Below, in pieces: positions 3,673 to 28,752 of a stretch of 64,000 bases of DNA (the stretch's first letter is position 1; each line of letters opens with the position of its first letter). Origin of the DNA: Chloroflexi bacterium HGW-Chloroflexi-10 (GTDB lineage Bacteria > Chloroflexota > Anaerolineae > Anaerolineales > Anaerolineaceae); contig PHBZ01000001.1 of the NCBI GenBank assembly GCA_002840755.1, positions 248,001 through 312,000 on the forward strand, read 5' to 3'. The position numbers and the translations under genes were made by a program. The notes beneath the pieces were generated by a model. That model ran no database searches and was not told the origin of the DNA. It was given only the letters and a program-made list of their open reading frames with translations.

Positions 3673-4224
3673 GTGACTTATTCAATAGGGTTATATTTCG
3701 ACCCGCAAACCGAAACGGAAATCCGGCGCATCTGGCAAATTATGGCAGAGAACGCAATAGAGGAATACCTGTATTCCTCTGCCAACCGTCCGCATATTAC
3801 CCTGACCATTTTTGAAGACCTGGATACAAATAAGGCAGAAAACCTGCTGCGTGATTTTGCTTTACGGCATACCCCTTTCCCAATCTCGTTTCAAGCGATT
3901 GGATTGTTTCCTTCCACGGCGGCAATCTTTCTCAATCCGGTGGTTACCGGCCAATTATTGAATATCCAGCGGGAATTACACAATCTTTTGGTCCCTTTTG
4001 CCGCCCTGCCGGAGTTTCCATATTACCTGCCCGATCAGTGGATTCCCCACTGCGGGCTGGCGATTGAAATGCCGCTGAAAAATCTGTTGCCGGCAGTGAA
4101 AACCGCCATAGACAACCTGGTATTGCCTCTCAACGGTGAGGTAATTGAAATTGGGCTTACCAGTTTCCGCCCGGTTGTCCATCTGCTCGGTTACCGCCTG
4201 GGGGGTGAACAATATTGCTGTTAA
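3673..4224 (+). CDS. 2H phosphoesterase / 2'-5' RNA ligase-like protein
   Basis: About 183 residues from GTG 3673, which has GGAAAGG 9 bases upstream and begins with the family-typical YSIGLYFDP strand. The frame extends to ATG 3592 but that start has no ribosome binding site. The first catalytic HxTx motif is clear (PHITLT). The second position reads PHCGLA, so the usual Thr/Ser two residues after His is Gly. Family members hydrolyse or ligate 2',5' or cyclic phosphodiesters using the two His-x-Thr motifs. The altered second motif leaves catalysis uncertain. It stands alone, ending in a 15-bp inverted repeat. Confidence 0.72.
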   Translation: MTYSIGLYFDPQTETEIRRIWQIMAENAIEEYLYSSANRPHITLTIFEDLDTNKAENLLRDFALRHTPFPISFQAIGLFPSTAAIFLNPVVTGQLLNIQRELHNLLVPFAALPEFPYYLPDQWIPHCGLAIEMPLKNLLPAVKTAIDNLVLPLNGEVIEIGLTSFRPVVHLLGYRLGGEQYCC

Positions 4225-4266
4225 TTGACAAGGATAAGTCTTCTTAAAAAAACTTATCCTTGTCAA
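4225..4266. terminator. 15-bp perfect inverted repeat, probable terminator
   Basis: TTGACAAGGATAAGT (4225-4239) pairs perfectly with 4252-4266 across a 12-base loop, immediately after the stop of the 2H phosphoesterase gene. There is no clear T-run after the stem, so this may be a non-canonical terminator or an mRNA-end stabiliser. Confidence 0.55.
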
Positions 4267-4326
4267 TATAATTCCGGACCAGCCCTAGTCCTTCCCTTTT
4301 ATCTCAAAAAACCGGTATACAACCAA

Positions 4327-4355
4327 TTGACATTCACCCGCCGATTCGGTAAAGT
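4327..4355 (+). promoter_or_regulatory. Housekeeping-type promoter of the halogenase-like gene
   Basis: TTGACA (4327-4332), a 17-base spacer and TAAAGT (4350-4355) lie about 55 bases before the ATG at 4410. Spacing and -35 are consensus; the -10 has two mismatches. Confidence 0.6.
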
Positions 4356-4409
4356 TTCAATATTGGCTATTTAGATTATTTTTATCTGCTTTCGTAAAAA
4401 GGTGTTCAT

Positions 4410-5867
4410 ATGTCCACAATTCCTGCAAAAACACAGGTGCTTGTCATTGGTGGCGGGCCTGCCGGTTCCACGGCTGCCACCCTGTTGGCTCGCCAGGGGA
4501 TTCACGTCACTCTGCTGGAGCAATCAAAATTTCCCCGTTACCATATCGGTGAATCCCTGCTGCCCACTATTCTGCCGATTATCGATTTAATGGGTGCGCG
4601 CGAAAAACTTGAATCCTGCGGATTTCAACGCAAACACGGTGCCTACCTGGAATGGGGTACCGAAACCTGGGCACTCAATTTTGGCGAATTGAGCGGCAGT
4701 GCCACCTATGCTTTTCAGGTTTCGCGTGCTGAATTCGACCTGATGCTGCTGGATCATGCCGCGGAACAGGGTGCGCATGTCTTCCAGCAAACGGAAGTGC
4801 GCAGCCTGGAATTTGATGGCGATCGGCCCATTAGCGCATCCTGGGTATACAAAGGCGATAACGGTAACGCCAAACAGGGAAGTATTGAATTTGATTATAT
4901 GATCGATGCTTCAGGACGCAATGGCCTTATGGCCAACCATTATCTGCACAACCGCAAATATCACCAGGTATTCCAGAATATCGGCGTGTGGGGCTATTGG
5001 AAAAAGACCGACCGCATGGTAACCGGACGCGAAGGGGATATTGCTGTGGGCTCCATTCCGGAAGGCTGGTTGTGGGCTATCCCGATGGCGGATGACCTCA
5101 TGAGCGTTGGCGCTGTGATGCATAAAGACAGTATCAAGGAACGCCGCGGCCAGAGCATGGAAGAAATTTACGCTAATGCGATTGAATCCTCGCCACTCAT
5201 TAAGAAGGTCGTTAAAGATGCCGAATTGGTCTCAGGAGTCAAGACAGAAACCGATTATTCGTATGCTTCTGAAAAGTTTTGCGGCCCGGGTTACTTTATG
5301 ACCGGCGACGCAGCCTGCTTCCTGGATCCGCTGCTTTCCAGTGGTGTGCATCTGGCCACATTAAGCGCCATGATGGCGGCTGCCTCCATCACCAGTATTT
5401 ACCGGGAAGAGGTGGATGAAGCCGAAGCACAATCCTTCTTTGAAAACAGCTACCGCCAGGCCTACCTGCGCTTTCTCGTTTTCCTCTCCGCCTTTTATGA
5501 TGTCGGGCGTTCCAAGGAATCCTATTTCTGGGAGGCTCAGCGCATCACCCAGGACGATGTACCGGCCGACTTCCTTAAACTGGCCTTTCTTAACCTGGTT
5601 ACCGGTGTTAAGGACCTGAAAGACGTTCAATCCACCGATACACACCATTTCGTCCTGCAGGAGATGGGCCAACGTATCGATGCCAACCTCAAATACCGCC
5701 AGGACAAAATGAAGCTGGCTTCACTGAAAGGTGAGGAATTGGAAGGCGCGCGCGCCAATGCCAATTTCTTCGACTCGGTTGAAGGGCTCTTCACCCTGGA
5801 CAAAGCCAACGCCGTCAATGGTCTGTATGTCCGTACCGCGCCAAGTTTTGGTTTGAGCAGGGTTTAA
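4410..5867 (+). CDS. Flavin-dependent halogenase-like FAD monooxygenase
   Basis: A 485-residue FAD enzyme. Residues 14-20 form the Rossmann GGGPAGS dinucleotide motif. FPRYHIGESLLP (41-52) follows it. GWLWAIP (219-225) is the WxWxIP motif regarded as diagnostic of flavin-dependent halogenases. GDAACFLDPLLSSGVHLA, near residue 300, matches the phenol/pyrrole-halogenase branch (CndH/CmlS-like, variant B). Such enzymes use FADH2, O2 and chloride or bromide to halogenate activated aromatics, usually carrier-bound. RBS AAAGGTG is 6 bases upstream of ATG. No PKS, NRPS, acyl-carrier or flavin-reductase gene adjoins it; a flavodoxin-like reductase lies at 21.5 kb. Non-halogenating oxidoreductases share parts of this fold, so halogenation itself is inferred. 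Confidence 0.78.
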   Translation: MSTIPAKTQVLVIGGGPAGSTAATLLARQGIHVTLLEQSKFPRYHIGESLLPTILPIIDLMGAREKLESCGFQRKHGAYLEWGTETWALNFGELSGSATYAFQVSRAEFDLMLLDHAAEQGAHVFQQTEVRSLEFDGDRPISASWVYKGDNGNAKQGSIEFDYMIDASGRNGLMANHYLHNRKYHQVFQNIGVWGYWKKTDRMVTGREGDIAVGSIPEGWLWAIPMADDLMSVGAVMHKDSIKERRGQSMEEIYANAIESSPLIKKVVKDAELVSGVKTETDYSYASEKFCGPGYFMTGDAACFLDPLLSSGVHLATLSAMMAAASITSIYREEVDEAEAQSFFENSYRQAYLRFLVFLSAFYDVGRSKESYFWEAQRITQDDVPADFLKLAFLNLVTGVKDLKDVQSTDTHHFVLQEMGQRIDANLKYRQDKMKLASLKGEELEGARANANFFDSVEGLFTLDKANAVNGLYVRTAPSFGLSRV

Positions 5868-5915
5868 TAATAGCAATAAAAAAAGTGGCGAAAGCCACTT
5901 TTTTTATTGCTATTA
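5868..5915. terminator. 22-bp bidirectional hairpin terminator
   Basis: A perfect 22-bp stem (5868-5889 with 5894-5915) closes on a GAAA tetraloop and carries A7/T7 tracts, so it can terminate from either side. It directly follows the halogenase-like gene. Its right edge touches the first copy of the duplicated epimerase 3' end. Confidence 0.88.
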
Positions 5916-6097
5916 GAAGAAAACTTTTACCCACTTCAGCGCCTTTTGCTTCCAGGGCAAACGGTGGGTAACGCCGGTGGATGTTTCGGATCGCAGGCGT
6001 TCAATATTGGCCAGGTACCAGTGATAATTGCGGATCATGGCATCCTTGTTGGAGTATTTAGGTTGGTAGCCCAGTACCCGCTGTGCCTTTTCCACAG
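5913..6097 (-). pseudogene. Duplicated 3' end of the SDR epimerase gene
   Basis: This 185-base block repeats 8587-8771, the last ~60 codons of the epimerase gene, in the same orientation with only a handful of substitutions. The reading frame is intact on the minus strand to the same stop codon, but it has no start and no upstream gene. The copy ends abruptly at about 6097, where chemotaxis-receptor sequence begins. Confidence 0.9.
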
Positions 6098-10564: not shown

Positions 10565-13500
10565 ATGAAAAGATCTTTTCAGCCGCTTTGTCAAAAGGTA
10601 ACCCTGTGGATAGGCTTCTTGGGATTTTCATTGATTCTGACGGCATGTTTAGCACAGAAAAATCCGCAAACAGTTTCTCCGGAAATTAAGTTCACGGCGG
10701 AACAGACGAAGCCAGTTATCACACAGCAGATTCCACTCGCGCCTGCTACTTCCGAACCAACTACAGTCCCATTAGATCGTTTAATGGCTTCCTTTGGACG
10801 GCATTGGTCGGCGCGGCTGGCTGTATCCAGTGATGGAAAGAACCTGGCAATAGCATTTGGAAATGAACTATGTCTCTATACTCTACCCAATCTTCAACGG
10901 ACCTGGTGTACCGTGGTCGACCGGACAGCTTCCGGCTATTTATGGGCGCTTGCGTATCAACCGCAGGCACAAATGCTGGCAATGGGTCTGGCAAACGGTC
11001 GGATCGTGTTGGTAGAATCCGGAACCGGTACTGTGCAGCGTGTTATTCAGGCTTCAGTGGACAACATCCGTTCATTGGCATGGTCGCCTGATGGTGAACT
11101 GTTAGCGTCTGGCTCTGATGCGGAAGAAGTGAAAATTTGGAATACCCGCAGCGGGGAGGGCTGCAACCCTGTATTTGATGGTCTGGTGACAAGACTTGAT
11201 GGGAAGACACTCGTAAGGCTGGGTGAGTGGGATGCCGGGAATCCGGTTCATGCGTTAGTTCTGAGTCCGGATGAAGCTGAGGTGGCGGTCAGGCCCGCGA
11301 ACGGTGCATTGCAGCTGCTCTCCGCCGATTTAAGTAAGCTTAAGGACCAGACAAACAATGCCTGGAGTGAAAGTGGTTTAGCGTGGCTGCCCAGCGATGA
11401 ATTGTTTTTTCTGAGCCGGATAAGAGTGGAAGAATTAGGGGTGGATTTATCCCGCTTCCCGGCAAATATGGCACCGGACCATCTGATCCGTTGGAATCCT
11501 GCCTCCGATCACCGCGATGAGATAATCCTTCCAGGTGAAGAATCGGTTTTTGGGCCAATCTGGACGTTGGATGGAAGCATTATTTCAGCGGGAACACCAT
11601 CCGGAAATATCTTGCTCTGGAATATACCATCTGGTTCTCTGTTTACACAATTAATCGGAAATAGCGGTTTCAGCCCGGGGGCGTGGTCTCCGGAAGGCAG
11701 GCAGTTTGCCCGTCTTGGAGAGACTGACAACATCATGCTCCTCAATGCCGCCACCTGGGAAGTGGAGCAGGCGATGGAAGCCAGCACTCGCCCTCCACAG
11801 CGTTTACTGTGGTCTCCTGACGGAAAGTGGCTGGCAGGAGCCGAATGGGAAAATGTTACCGTTTGGAATGTAGAAAACGGGGAAATCATATTCCGGAAAC
11901 CTACACTTTCATCCAGTGCGGTGGACTTCTCACCGGATGGCAGCCGGTTGGTAGTGGCAGCTGGTGACGAAGGCTCCCTGATGCAAATATGGGAAGTACA
12001 CGCCGGCCAGCTTGTGCAAGTGATGCAGACTTCAGGATGGATCACCAGCCTGGATTGGAATGCAAGTTCAAATGGCGAGCATATTGCAGTTGCCCAGGGA
12101 GGATGGGCAGAAGTTTGGGATGTTGAAACAGGGGAAAAGCTCTTGCAGATTTCGTCCAGTGATGCCGGACACAGTTGGGGTATTGATCAGGCAGCTCTCA
12201 GCCCAGATGGTACCATACTGGCAACGGCAGCAGCCGAGATCATTTTGTGGGACATAGCCAGTGGAGAAAAGCTGGAACGGCTGGAAGGACATACCGAGGC
12301 GGTGACCGGCCTTAGTTTCAGCTCAAACGGAAAACATCTGGCATCTGCCTCACGCGAGGGTGTCGTCATGGTTTGGGATATTGAATCAAATACAACTTTG
12401 CCCACCCAAACTGCAAACAGGGCCGCCACCATCACCCCGCTGCCTACCAGAACCACCCCTACCGTTTACCCACCCTACGAAGCGCCGTCCGATTGGCCGG
12501 TGTTCCGCAGCGAGAGTTTCGGCATCCAATTTAGCTACCCACCCAACTGGCAGGTTATCTCAGATACCGAAATCCGCGGTGAGGATGGGAGTGTGATTCT
12601 CAGCAGTCTTACTCAGGATCAGTCCAACCTGTACACCTGGTGTCAGACAGAGGTCAATGCGGGCATCCCGTCGCGCTACAGCAATGTTTCACATCTCAAC
12701 ACCATATGGACGGAAAACCATTTTTCAGGCTGCGCCATTACTCTGCCAGACGCCTCGCCATCCACCCGTGGCACCGTCTTTGTCTGGTACCCCAATGATT
12801 ACATTGGCAGAAATATCCTGGAAGTACAAATTTCGACAGCTTTTCAGAATGTAATTCTGGGCAGTCTGAGTCTTCTTGAAGAGAAACCATTAGAGACTCT
12901 TTCAGTCGATTGCACGCCAAAACCCAGTGAGCCGCAGCATATACAGTTCTCCGGGCTGGACATCACCATCTATACTATTCCCTCTTTTAGCTGCAGTAGT
13001 GATGCAGACGCCGACGCCGAAGCCATTGCCAGCCTGCTGCCTAATGAAGCACGGCAGCAAGCCAGCAAACTGCGTCTACTTTCTGCACAACAGTTAAAGA
13101 TGATCAACCAGCAGTTGGCGCCGTTTCAGATTCGCCTGGAAAACAACCAGATCTACCGGCAGGGCGAGAAACTGATCGAGAGCGGCTTCACCTGGGCTGG
13201 CCTTCCGGTGATCAACCAATCCGGCAATGAATTCTATATGCCTTTAATGGATAATTCGCTTGCCAACACATCCTACCTGATCAGTAAAGACAGGGTCGAA
13301 GAACTTAAATTTGATCCCTTTTTCTCCAGCCTGGGCTATGTTCCCCGGCATGCCTTCCTGGGTGATGACCTGCTGACCGTTGAATTTGAACCCGTTCAGC
13401 ATTCCATGTTTGTTAGTCCCAGCAGTGTCTCCGTCAAACGTAATGGAAAAACCATTTTCACCTATACAACATTTCCCATCACACCGGCAGCCAACCCGGT

Positions 13501-13855
13501 GCGTGGGTTTCATGTCTGGAACGGACACTGGATTCTGGAACTGCCGGATCTGATTCTTCAGGATGGTGTCGCGATCCATGAAGCGCTGGATGCCTCGGCG
13601 GCTTACACATGGAAGCTCATCGACGACAAACCATTCTTTTTCTACCGCCAGGCGAACCAGGTTCATATCTCGTACGACGGACAAACCCTACCGCTCAGTT
13701 TTACGCACATCTACCATGAACCGGCATGCTGCTCCGGTGGATTGATGAACATGACCCTCGGCTACAACGGCCTGGGGTTTTATGCCAAACAGGATGGGCA
13801 AATAATCTATGTTGTCATTCAGCCGGAAAACGGAACTGCACTTGCTGGGCATTAA
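10565..13855 (+). CDS. Large WD40-repeat lipoprotein
   Basis: 1096 residues. An N-terminal signal peptide ends in the lipobox LTAC (Cys at about residue 28), so the protein is lipid-anchored outside the membrane. Residues ~70-610 form WD40 blades (recurring WSPDGKWLA, SFSSNGKHLASAS, VMVWDIES). A Pro/Thr linker (ITPLPTRTTPTVYPP) follows, and then a ~440-residue C-terminal part that begins with an FGIQFSYPPNWQV motif like PsbP-type or lipoprotein carbohydrate-proximal domains and is otherwise unrecognised. GGAGGG lies a few bases upstream of the ATG. It is probably a cell-surface scaffold or ligand-binding propeller. No enzymatic motif is seen. Confidence 0.8.
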   Translation: MKRSFQPLCQKVTLWIGFLGFSLILTACLAQKNPQTVSPEIKFTAEQTKPVITQQIPLAPATSEPTTVPLDRLMASFGRHWSARLAVSSDGKNLAIAFGNELCLYTLPNLQRTWCTVVDRTASGYLWALAYQPQAQMLAMGLANGRIVLVESGTGTVQRVIQASVDNIRSLAWSPDGELLASGSDAEEVKIWNTRSGEGCNPVFDGLVTRLDGKTLVRLGEWDAGNPVHALVLSPDEAEVAVRPANGALQLLSADLSKLKDQTNNAWSESGLAWLPSDELFFLSRIRVEELGVDLSRFPANMAPDHLIRWNPASDHRDEIILPGEESVFGPIWTLDGSIISAGTPSGNILLWNIPSGSLFTQLIGNSGFSPGAWSPEGRQFARLGETDNIMLLNAATWEVEQAMEASTRPPQRLLWSPDGKWLAGAEWENVTVWNVENGEIIFRKPTLSSSAVDFSPDGSRLVVAAGDEGSLMQIWEVHAGQLVQVMQTSGWITSLDWNASSNGEHIAVAQGGWAEVWDVETGEKLLQISSSDAGHSWGIDQAALSPDGTILATAAAEIILWDIASGEKLERLEGHTEAVTGLSFSSNGKHLASASREGVVMVWDIESNTTLPTQTANRAATITPLPTRTTPTVYPPYEAPSDWPVFRSESFGIQFSYPPNWQVISDTEIRGEDGSVILSSLTQDQSNLYTWCQTEVNAGIPSRYSNVSHLNTIWTENHFSGCAITLPDASPSTRGTVFVWYPNDYIGRNILEVQISTAFQNVILGSLSLLEEKPLETLSVDCTPKPSEPQHIQFSGLDITIYTIPSFSCSSDADADAEAIASLLPNEARQQASKLRLLSAQQLKMINQQLAPFQIRLENNQIYRQGEKLIESGFTWAGLPVINQSGNEFYMPLMDNSLANTSYLISKDRVEELKFDPFFSSLGYVPRHAFLGDDLLTVEFEPVQHSMFVSPSSVSVKRNGKTIFTYTTFPITPAANPVRGFHVWNGHWILELPDLILQDGVAIHEALDASAAYTWKLIDDKPFFFYRQANQVHISYDGQTLPLSFTHIYHEPACCSGGLMNMTLGYNGLGFYAKQDGQIIYVVIQPENGTALAGH

Positions 13856-25610: not shown

Positions 25611-28600
25611 ATGAGTGACGTGTTCCTTTCGTATTCCCGTAAAGATACCGAATTTGTTCATGAAATCTTTGAATCGTTTAGCGCACGCAATCGGGAAGCC
25701 TGGATCGATCTGCATGGTATTGAGTATTCATCCAAATGGTGGGAAGAGATCTGTGGCGGAATAGATAGCGCGGATAACTTTGTATTGTTTGTCAGCCAAA
25801 ATTCACTTGAATCACTGTTCTGTCATCGGGAGATTCAACATGCACTCAAGCACAATAAGCGGATCATCCCTTTCCTGTTTGGGCGGATAGATCAGCAGGC
25901 CATGTTCCAGGCGTGGAAAAACAGCCCGGATTTATCTAAATATGAACAACTTGCGCACGAGAACTGGGAGAGTATCCAGTCTATTCAATGGATTGATTAC
26001 ACTCAGATCAATGACGTTAACCTGGCTGTTGACGCGCTTCTGGCAACGGTGGATACCGATCCGGACCGTGTTAAGCTCCATACGCGTTTGCTGTTGCGCC
26101 TGCGCGATTGGGAGAACCAGGGCCAGAATCCAAGTGGGTTGTTGCGCGGGGATGAGTTGACGCAGTATGAGAAGTGGTTTAGCGAATCACATAAGAAAGA
26201 AACGCCTCCTTATCCAACGGATGGCCAGGAAGCGTATATTGGCGAAAGTCGTCGCGCTGAAAACGAAGCGGAGGCGAAAAGGCTCCAACGTGAGCGTCTG
26301 GTTAGCCGGTTCAAAACAGCATCTGCTGTTTTGGGAGGGTTCTTCATTCTGGCATTGATTGCTACGATCATAACAATCAGGTTTGCCAACAATGCAGTCG
26401 CTGCCCAGGAAGCCTCGATCGCCAGGGAAGGGCAGGCAAATACACAGGTCGCGCAGTCCAGGGTTACCTTACAGGCAGGGAGTACACTCATCGCCGACGG
26501 TAATATGCAGATAGCTGTCATTGGGCAAACCCTGACGCCTATTCCTCCCACATTGACCGCGGTCGCGCAGACTGTCGTTGCCGGTAGTTATATGATTGAA
26601 TCCCTCAAAAACTCAGCGTCAGCCAACGGCATCTTGCGAACCGAGGGTGGCAATGCCGAGACTGCTGCGCTATTAAGCATTCGGGTCTTGCGGAAGATCT
26701 ATCTGGAAAGTGCGGATGGTGCTTTGGTAGATGCGCTCAATCGCCTCAAGGTAGTTCCCCAGGAGTTCCAGGTTGAACAGGGTTTCGTACAAATCGTCAC
26801 ATTTTCTCCGGATGGAAAAACATTCTTATTGGGTATTAACGGCGCTGATAACCCCAATACGGGTGGTGCGGAGTTAAGAGACACGGCCAGCGGAAAAGTC
26901 ATCTGGACGCGCGCCATGCAGTCACCCAACATCAACAGTCTGGCCTTTTCTCAGGATGGAAAACTGGTTGTGGCGGCGGGCGGGGATCACACCGCGATAA
27001 TTTTGGATGCGGCCAATGGAACGACAGTCCGGGTCTTGCAGGGTCATGGCGATGCTGTAATGTGCGCCGTCTTTTCTCCCAACGGGAAGACAATCCTTAC
27101 GCTGGGGGGAGGCAATGACCGGACGGCTCGTCTGTGGGAGGTCGGGACGGGCAAGCAGATCTACTCCGTCACATCCGGTGGAGGCTTCTCCTCCCTCTTC
27201 TTTTTCCCGGATGGTCAGACCTTTTATGCAGCCGATAAAGTCTATAATGTCTCCGATGGACAGGTTAGCCAGGATAGTAGAGTGGGCGGGGGAACCCTGG
27301 CTATTTCACCGGACGGTAGAATCGCTGTTTCCGGGATTAACCCAACCGCCAGAATTTATGATACCAGCAGCGGGCAGGAAATCCGCTCTCTCTCCGGGCA
27401 TACCGATTCGGTTGTGAGTGCCGCGTTCTCAGGCGATGGTAAATGGTTGGTCACCGGGAGCTGGGACAACACAGCCCGGGTGTGGGAGGTCGCCACCGGT
27501 AAATCTATGCTTCTTCTTTCCGGTCGTGCTTTTTCGACGGGGGCAGTTGCTTTTTCTCCGGATGGAACGAAAGTGCTTACCGGTTCCAATACCGCACGTT
27601 TGTGGAGCATCACAATGGATAAGCAGCAGCAAACCATTTCTGCGCCGGCGGGCGTCACCACCTTTGCCCTTTCCCCGGATGGAAATACGATTCTGGTTGG
27701 CGATGTGGATGGCAACACGGGTTTGTGGGATCTGGGTACGGGGCAGCTGCTGCGCAATTTTTCAAATGGAGGTGCGAACATAACCTCCGTAGCGTTCTCG
27801 CCTGACGGCAGTCTGGTGGCAGTTCCTGCGCTTAATATAAACAGTGCTTCGGTTAAGTTGTATGATCCGTTGACCGGAGAACTCTTGAAGACATTCACTG
27901 CCGATTCTCTTCAACCGCAAATCGGGGTCCTTTCTTTTTCATCGGATAGCAAAATGATCTTCGTATCCTATTTTGACAGCACCGCGCGATTGTGGGACAT
28001 CGCCAGTGGTCAGCTATTGCGCCTATTCAATGGGAACGATCCGTTAAATCATGGTTCATTTACCTATTCACCCGATGGTAACCTGGTAACGCTCGCCAAT
28101 GGAAGTATCTGGTGGGATATATCCACTGGAGGGGAAATGGATTTTCCGGCCGAGATGAAGATAGGCCGGACCGTATTCTCAGGGGATGGAAGCCTGGTTG
28201 CCATCTCTGAAAATTTCCATACCATTGCTGTTTGGAATGTGTCGACCCGCCAAATCATCAATCGCTTTTCCGATCCCGGCGGCAATATGGCAATATCGCC
28301 TGATAACAGACTGCTGTTAACCAGCAGTGACAAAACGGCGCGCTTGTGGGATATTTCTACCGGGCAGCAGCTCCGTGTTTATAGCGGTCATACTGCTGTG
28401 ATTAGCAGTGTCTCGTTCACCCCGGATGGTAAAAGAATTGTCACAGGAAGCCTGGATAAGACCATCCGCACCTGGATTACCGATTACAATGACTTGTTGT
28501 CTTATGCCTGTTCACGGGTTGTAATTGACCTGAATTCAGGGGATCGATCCTTCTACGAAGTTTCGGACCAGGAACCGACCTGCCCGCAGTTTGGCGATCA

Positions 28601-28697
28601 ATCTCAACCTTTATTGCCGACCACAACACCCATGCCGACCCGTACACCACAGCCAGCCTGGACACCCATCCCAACACCAACCGCAGACGGTTCCTGA
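25611..28697 (+). CDS. Transmembrane TIR-WD40 receptor-like protein
   Basis: 1028 residues. Residues 1-150 are a TIR domain: MSDVFLSYSRKD is box 1, and SLFCHRE places Glu74 where TIR NADases carry their catalytic Glu. One membrane helix lies near 236-257 (VLGGFFILALIATIITIR). A linker follows, then about fourteen WD40 blades (VAFSPDGSLVAVP, TARLWDISTGQQLRVYSGH and others), and a Pro/Thr-rich tail ending TPIPTPTADGS. With the usual charge rule the TIR is cytoplasmic and the propeller outside. Bacterial TIR domains often cleave NAD+ or make cyclic-ADP-ribose signals; the WD40 part would sense or oligomerise. Single gene with its own hairpin terminator; ATG start as usual, though the ribosome binding site is weak. 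NADase activity and defence are inferences. Confidence 0.82.
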   Translation: MSDVFLSYSRKDTEFVHEIFESFSARNREAWIDLHGIEYSSKWWEEICGGIDSADNFVLFVSQNSLESLFCHREIQHALKHNKRIIPFLFGRIDQQAMFQAWKNSPDLSKYEQLAHENWESIQSIQWIDYTQINDVNLAVDALLATVDTDPDRVKLHTRLLLRLRDWENQGQNPSGLLRGDELTQYEKWFSESHKKETPPYPTDGQEAYIGESRRAENEAEAKRLQRERLVSRFKTASAVLGGFFILALIATIITIRFANNAVAAQEASIAREGQANTQVAQSRVTLQAGSTLIADGNMQIAVIGQTLTPIPPTLTAVAQTVVAGSYMIESLKNSASANGILRTEGGNAETAALLSIRVLRKIYLESADGALVDALNRLKVVPQEFQVEQGFVQIVTFSPDGKTFLLGINGADNPNTGGAELRDTASGKVIWTRAMQSPNINSLAFSQDGKLVVAAGGDHTAIILDAANGTTVRVLQGHGDAVMCAVFSPNGKTILTLGGGNDRTARLWEVGTGKQIYSVTSGGGFSSLFFFPDGQTFYAADKVYNVSDGQVSQDSRVGGGTLAISPDGRIAVSGINPTARIYDTSSGQEIRSLSGHTDSVVSAAFSGDGKWLVTGSWDNTARVWEVATGKSMLLLSGRAFSTGAVAFSPDGTKVLTGSNTARLWSITMDKQQQTISAPAGVTTFALSPDGNTILVGDVDGNTGLWDLGTGQLLRNFSNGGANITSVAFSPDGSLVAVPALNINSASVKLYDPLTGELLKTFTADSLQPQIGVLSFSSDSKMIFVSYFDSTARLWDIASGQLLRLFNGNDPLNHGSFTYSPDGNLVTLANGSIWWDISTGGEMDFPAEMKIGRTVFSGDGSLVAISENFHTIAVWNVSTRQIINRFSDPGGNMAISPDNRLLLTSSDKTARLWDISTGQQLRVYSGHTAVISSVSFTPDGKRIVTGSLDKTIRTWITDYNDLLSYACSRVVIDLNSGDRSFYEVSDQEPTCPQFGDQSQPLLPTTTPMPTRTPQPAWTPIPTPTADGS

Positions 28698-28711
28698 CCT
28701 GATTCATTATT

Positions 28712-28752
28712 GGTTCAGGCTGTTCTCTTTTAACAGCTTGAACCATTTTTTT
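28712..28752 (+). terminator. Terminator of the TIR-WD40 gene
   Basis: GGTTCAGGCTGTT (28712-28724) pairs with AACAGCTTGAACC (28732-28744) except for one G-T position, followed by a run of seven T. It sits 15 bases after the stop codon. Confidence 0.92.

Follow-up and report, generated by a model that had tools for sequence, protein, structure and literature searches.

We describe here a transmembrane TIR protein with a WD40 ectodomain, encoded at 25611-28697 (+) of a 64,000-nucleotide stretch of DNA from Chloroflexi bacterium HGW-Chloroflexi-10, a member of the Anaerolineae (the window), and the family of TIR-linker-TM-ectodomain proteins to which it belongs, which is large, patchily spread and hardly described. 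Beginning with an ATG, the ORF codes for 1028 aa. An N-terminal TIR domain is joined by a helical linker to a single membrane helix, beyond which come a stalk, a propeller part of about 14 WD40 blades and a Pro/Thr tail. The protein could be a self-contained single-pass receptor of immune type whose TIR domain cleaves NAD+ upon engagement of the ectodomain, a reading for which we see the balance as even, and we judge it just as evenly balanced whether the protein takes part in defence or in a programmed arrest of the cell. The gene and its parts are as follows.

25611-28697 (+): TIR-linker-TM-stalk-WD40 gene, 1028 aa (ORF, Pfam, relatives, purifying selection)
25611-26054 (+): TIR domain, residues 1-148, very probably cytosolic (PF13676, E 8.7e-20; AF2; PDB matches to RUN1/SARM1 with Z 16-18)
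25830-25832 (+): codon of Glu74, putative catalytic residue (aligned on the SARM1 WVHKEI Glu; invariant in 35/35 and 45/45)
26055-26318 (+): helical linker, residues 149-236, common to nSTAND1-TM proteins (invariant D150, W167, L178; linker matches in nSTAND1 proteins)
26220-26498 (+): single predicted helix, residues 204-296, made of juxtamembrane part, TM and stalk (AF2, 45-sequence alignment)
26322-26378 (+): membrane helix, residues 238-256 (KD 2.43, K/R-rich N flank)
26550-26744 (+): helical segment before the propeller, residues 314-378 (full-length AF2, pLDDT ~80-90 from residue 330)
26763-28478 (+): WD40 propeller region, residues 385-956, 13-14 blades, very probably extracytoplasmic (Pfam, motifs, strands, PDB double-propeller matches)
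28509-28583 (+): C-terminal pair Cys967...Cys991, candidate disulfide (tail pair recurs in relatives)
28599-28694 (+): Pro/Thr-rich tail, residues ~995-1028, predicted to be disordered over 997-1028 (sequence; pLDDT <50)
28711-28745 (+): hairpin resembling an intrinsic terminator, 14 pairs followed by a T run (suggests that the transcript ends with the gene)

The ORF is far above chance, as follows from its open length of 1028 aa, the Pfam E-values, relatives with 62-66% identity and the substitution rates. Compared with the 66%-identical relative on L002, dN is 0.24 and dS 1.23, which by sequence comparison places the gene under purifying selection, the TIR domain being 76% conserved and the propeller 62%. 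The GC content is 0.517 for the gene and 0.499 for the window. Contamination as the origin of the gene was considered and dropped, given the 391-kb contig and the similar GC, yet the contamination estimate of 6.7% for the assembly leaves some doubt. The protein is the only TIR_2 protein of its genome.

TIR_2 (PF13676) was matched by Pfam at residues 4-96 with 71.9 bits against a curated cut-off of 28 (E 8.7e-20). In a sequence alignment, Glu74 (motif SLFCHREI) falls opposite the catalytic Glu642 of SARM1 (motif WVHKEI), and Glu74 is invariant in two homologue alignments (35/35 and 45/45 sequences), as are F5, S7, Y8, R10, W31, D33, S68, C71 and K83. The initial annotation, which had put the Glu of SLFCHRE in the NADase position, is borne out here. 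A missing NAD pocket, which it had named as a refuting result, was not seen in the AF2 model of residues 1-297 (alignment of 45 homologues, mean pLDDT 93.8), the TIR fold of which matches NAD(P)-bound TIR structures. With VIA-align, the best structural match was the TIR domain of RUN1 (Z 18.2 in the NAD-bound form and 18.1 with NADP+; rmsd 2.4-2.5 over ~150 residues), and other matches were SARM1 (Z 16.6), the TIR-APAZ of SPARTA (16.6) and AbTir (15.7), so that the modelled fold is of the NAD-binding type, with SARM1 and those plant TIRs that bind NAD(P) as its nearest counterparts.

With the fold and the Glu at the catalytic position both present as in TIR NADases, sequence and model indicate that the TIR domain is likely an active NADase. 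We keep the claim at this strength because C-x-x-E also occurs in TLR6 at the place equivalent to Glu74, and because the position four residues ahead of the Glu, a Trp in SARM1, holds Phe here and Val/Ile in most relatives. The TIR domain of TLR6 is to our knowledge not an NADase, and the Glu by itself is therefore no proof of such activity; a Trp of the SARM1 type is not required in every TIR enzyme. Matches to the TIR profiles of PADLOC were weak (best E 1.6e-6), as were those of the ThsB profiles of PADLOC and Pfam.

Behind the TIR domain, AF2 predicts two helices (151-169 and 180-195) and then an unbroken helix from 204 to 296, and the linker residues D150, W167 and L178 are invariant in the 45-sequence alignment. 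The single membrane helix of the initial annotation was found again as the only strong hydrophobic helix of the protein (residues 238-256, KD mean 2.43). The window protein thus combines the features that define the family, namely a TIR domain with CxxE, the D150/W167/L178 linker and a single TM after the linker. When linker-TM alone was used as the query, nSTAND1 proteins were found that carry an NTPase in the place of the TIR domain, followed by the same linker, the TM and a WD40 or SBP part, e.g., nSTAND1-linker-TM-SBP_bac_1 on L081, where a solute-binding domain sits on the same linker-TM. No P-loop NTPase was matched by Pfam in the window protein. Three TIR-linker units stand in tandem before the membrane helix in proteins from Bernardetia (L065, 5329-7836) and Kovacikia (L066, 4687-7836, ending in CHASE2). 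Judged from these sequences, the members of the family are built on a common membrane chassis, on which both the cytosolic and the outer parts can be exchanged. As side observations, the gene on L081 (1-3363, -) looks like one for a STAND receptor of an outside small molecule, and in L005 and L006 a domain resembling a cyclic-nucleotide-binding domain seems, by eye, to lie N-terminal of the TIR domain.

The C-terminal two thirds are covered by many WD40 models of Pfam. A regular expression found 15 WD-type motifs, and full-length AF2 predicts 53 strands between residues 385 and 956, which together give 13-14 blades, in keeping with the propeller of about fourteen blades noticed from the sequence at the outset; the Pro/Thr-rich tail (~995-1028) was also recovered. 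The full-length model (pLDDT 68, pTM 0.49) is too weak for placing the propellers, and Foldseek returned only generic multi-propeller matches for it. The window encodes a second long WD40 protein of 1096 aa (10565-13855, +), which starts with the lipoprotein-type signal LILTACLAQ and on this basis likely lies outside the membrane, too.

A sensor outside and a TIR domain inside had been proposed by the charge rule, and this orientation, which we regard as highly probable, is now supported by four lines of evidence, i.e., charge bias, Cys parity, the domains following the TM in relatives and the SBP on the linker-TM of L081, none of which points to a cytoplasmic propeller. A single TM was counted in the window protein as well as in 24 full-length relatives. 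Over 15 residues, the N flank of the TM contains 4.5 K/R and the C flank 1.8, and the N side has the more positive net charge in 43 of 45 homologues. An even number of Cys was counted in 40/45 ectodomains with any Cys and in 12/45 cytosolic parts of the same proteins, which served as the control rather than soluble WD40 proteins. With one vote per 60%-identity cluster the parity still held in 19/24 (p 0.007), while collapsing to 9 broad clusters, which has less power, removed significance. The window ectodomain holds three Cys, the pair 967/991 and a lone third one; a tail pair spaced by 20-31 residues occurs in 31 of 46 relatives, and C991 is nearly invariant in A3. As for the domains beyond the TM, relatives carry SH3b with a Pro/Thr-rich stretch (L046 and L050), WD40 with an SH3b-like end as read by eye (L047), CHASE2 after the TM and three TIR-linker units (Kovacikia L066) or an M23 peptidase C-terminal to WD40 (Agrobacterium plasmid protein L067, 4956-7889).

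Since a search with the whole protein is swamped by WD40 matches, the N-terminal 290 residues (TIR-linker-TM) were used as the query, and this search, following up the suggestion to look for homologues with the same TM-WD40 order, revealed the large TIR + linker + TM + ectodomain family. Matches were present in 93 of 396 sampled genomes of the class, often several per genome, with the weaker ones covering the TIR domain only. Nearer to the window genome, they occurred in 4/147 genomes of its taxonomic family and 1/8 of its genus, and a peptide-pattern scan of genome contigs gave only two close relatives. Relatives from Tolypothrix, Bernardetia, Kovacikia and Agrobacterium are plasmid-borne, which, together with the patchy spread, is what one expects of an accessory gene. 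The statement of the initial annotation that most TIR-WD40 proteins are soluble does not apply to the TIR-linker-TM family, as the TM is present in 45/45 homologues measured. Its view of a little-described system holds insofar as no description of a TIR-TM-WD40 protein was found, but not in the sense of a lone oddity, considering the matches in 93/396 class genomes. Our full-text literature search for TIR with WD40 or TM returned no description of a TIR-TM-WD40 protein with an outside propeller, a result that is no proof of absence, with subscription papers outside its scope; in databases such proteins already bear the name 'TIR domain-containing protein'.

At its locus, the gene is separated from the upstream ORF by 267 bp, and this gap together with the hairpin after the stop codon makes it probable that it is transcribed alone. 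It is preceded by a gene for a polytopic membrane protein without a Pfam match and followed by genes for an ABC ATPase, a permease, a histidine kinase and a NarL-type regulator. Neither a defence island nor a known defence gene or partner gene was found around the window copy, nor a ThsA-type partner gene among its neighbours. SLATT_1 is absent beside the window copy and from its genome (with positive controls in relatives), STALD gave no match in the genome in a search without positive control, and TPR-S gave only a sub-threshold match away from the gene. When the flanks were compared within the genus, no clean empty site emerged; none of the seven other genus members has a counterpart of the downstream permease, and the upstream gene has only distant relatives.

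That no effector gene lies next to the gene, as initially noted, is correct for the orphan window copy, but relatives elsewhere belong to an operon that also holds predicted effectors. Nine genomes that belong to the same order but to another family carry SLATT_1 after the TIR-TM-WD40 gene, with a C39-like/SH3b gene in 8/9 and a TPR-S gene in 8/9 of them, in the cluster C39/SH3b - TIR-TM-WD40 - SLATT_1 - TPR-S (L060, L061, L063, L093, L094, L095, L096, L098, L100), except that the C39 gene was not seen on L100 and the TPR-S gene was not found in L096; in the window, adjacent SLATT_1 and TPR-S genes are absent. SLATT_1 is the SMODS and SLOG-associating 2TM effector, and the names SLATT and TPR-S go back to predicted conflict-system roles. 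The N-terminal part of the TPR-S protein reads, by eye, like a deoxyribosyltransferase/DRHyd-type domain. This setting, by its sequence a conflict-type operon in the relatives, gives the best clue to what the family does. Eight of the nine clusters also contain a conserved facing ORF of ~160 aa with no assigned kind. Right after the closest relative, L002 encodes a protein of 599 aa (4134-5933, +) that ends in a TIR domain (PF13676), has no Pfam match in its N-terminal part and is a possible partner of that relative, and on L003 (2766-8585, +) three tandem genes after the relative read as kinase-TM-formylglycine-type proteins.

In the mechanism that we propose, the outside WD40 propellers would bind a ligand, which might be a phage particle or product, a peptide or damaged envelope, and binding or clustering would move the continuous juxtamembrane-TM-stalk helix and bring TIR domains together in the cytosol. 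The assembled TIR would then cleave NAD+ at Glu74, whereby the cell would be stopped or killed, or an NAD-derived signal would be made. The same inside mechanism might instead serve a physiological or developmental signal such as envelope state, cell contact or programmed death in filaments. The variety of ectodomains (SH3b, CHASE2, M23, WD40) would suit wall and small-molecule cues, and caspase-CHASE2 proteins of like plan have been considered in the context of cell death (PMC3501461), but the patchy accessory spread and the SLATT_1/TPR-S setting of relatives fit conflict systems better, and we consider this reading somewhat unlikely.

The remaining alternatives concern the TIR domain and its orientation. 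A non-enzymatic receptor, whose TIR domain, like that of animal TLRs, serves as a platform for assembly and recruits a cytosolic partner on engagement, would agree with the C-x-x-E motif shared with TLR6, the missing Trp and the SLATT_1 and TPR-S genes as possible partners next door in relatives; it is nevertheless unlikely, since Glu74 does not vary among 45 divergent sequences, the best structural matches are SARM1 and plant TIRs with enzyme activity, and the window copy has no partner gene, in a genome with no SLATT_1 and one TIR_2 protein only. Even less probable is a Thoeris-like system in which the TIR domain makes a nucleotide signal for a distant receptor protein: the weak ThsB matches of PADLOC and Pfam point this way, and the TPR-S protein next to relatives could be the reader, whereas the lack of STALD matches in the genome (without positive control), the sub-threshold TPR-S match elsewhere and the orphan gene with its own terminator-like hairpin argue against it. 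A reverse topology with the propeller in the cytoplasm and the TIR domain outside, or a soluble protein with a buried hydrophobic helix, would be in line with eukaryotic WD40 proteins, which are mostly cytosolic, but is very improbable given the charge bias, the Cys parity, the SH3b, CHASE2, M23 and SBP domains that relatives carry at this position and the cytosolic nature of NAD+.

Bacterial TIR defence proteins known to us sense infection inside the cell. We tentatively suggest that the NAD+-cleaving receptor proposed here stands for a widespread class of transmembrane TIR receptors which, on a chassis shared with nSTAND1 proteins, turn an outside cue into NAD+ loss, amounting to a surface immunity that arose independently of Toll-like receptors; the outside sensors (WD40, SH3b, CHASE2, M23-linked) would, equally tentatively, be exchangeable within this class. 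If this is true, a large family, with the sensor outside and the NADase-type TIR inside, would amount to bacterial receptors that couple the cell surface to an immune effector, and the reaction of bacteria to phage or rivals at the envelope would become testable. With TIR and nSTAND1 replacing each other on a single membrane chassis, the family also lends itself as a modular system to experiments on trans-membrane signalling, and the interest of the single gene comes from the family that it revealed.

Among known systems, the nSTAND1-TM-WD40 STAND proteins (PF20703) agree in plan from the helical linker through membrane helix and stalk to the WD40 ectodomain, but there an NTPase stands where the TIR domain is found here, and the P-loop domain is absent from the window protein. 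TIR joined to NBD-WD40 (PMC9153377) and WD40-kinase fusions (PMC5587647) have been described before. The caspase-TM-CHASE2 protein of Trichodesmium, described as a membrane receptor (PMC3501461), likewise combines a cytosolic death-type effector, membrane helices and an outside receptor domain; it differs in having a protease instead of a TIR domain, several membrane passes and CHASE2 instead of WD40, although CHASE2 is also present, with three TIRs, in the relative on L066. SARM1 and the plant TIR NADases (RUN1, RPP1) share the TIR fold and the Glu at the catalytic position, but are soluble with other regulators, and the Trp of SARM1 is absent from the window TIR. Thoeris ThsB is alike in its TIR domain, with weak profile matches, while the window protein has a membrane receptor architecture and no ThsA-type partner. 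Animal Toll-like receptors resemble it in crossing the membrane once, in having a repeat sensor outside and a TIR domain in the cytosol, and in C-x-x-E (TLR6), whereas here the order is reversed with the TIR domain at the N-terminus, WD40 takes the place of LRR, and the nearest structures are NADase TIRs, so that the likeness is one of layout, without evidence for common descent of the whole protein.
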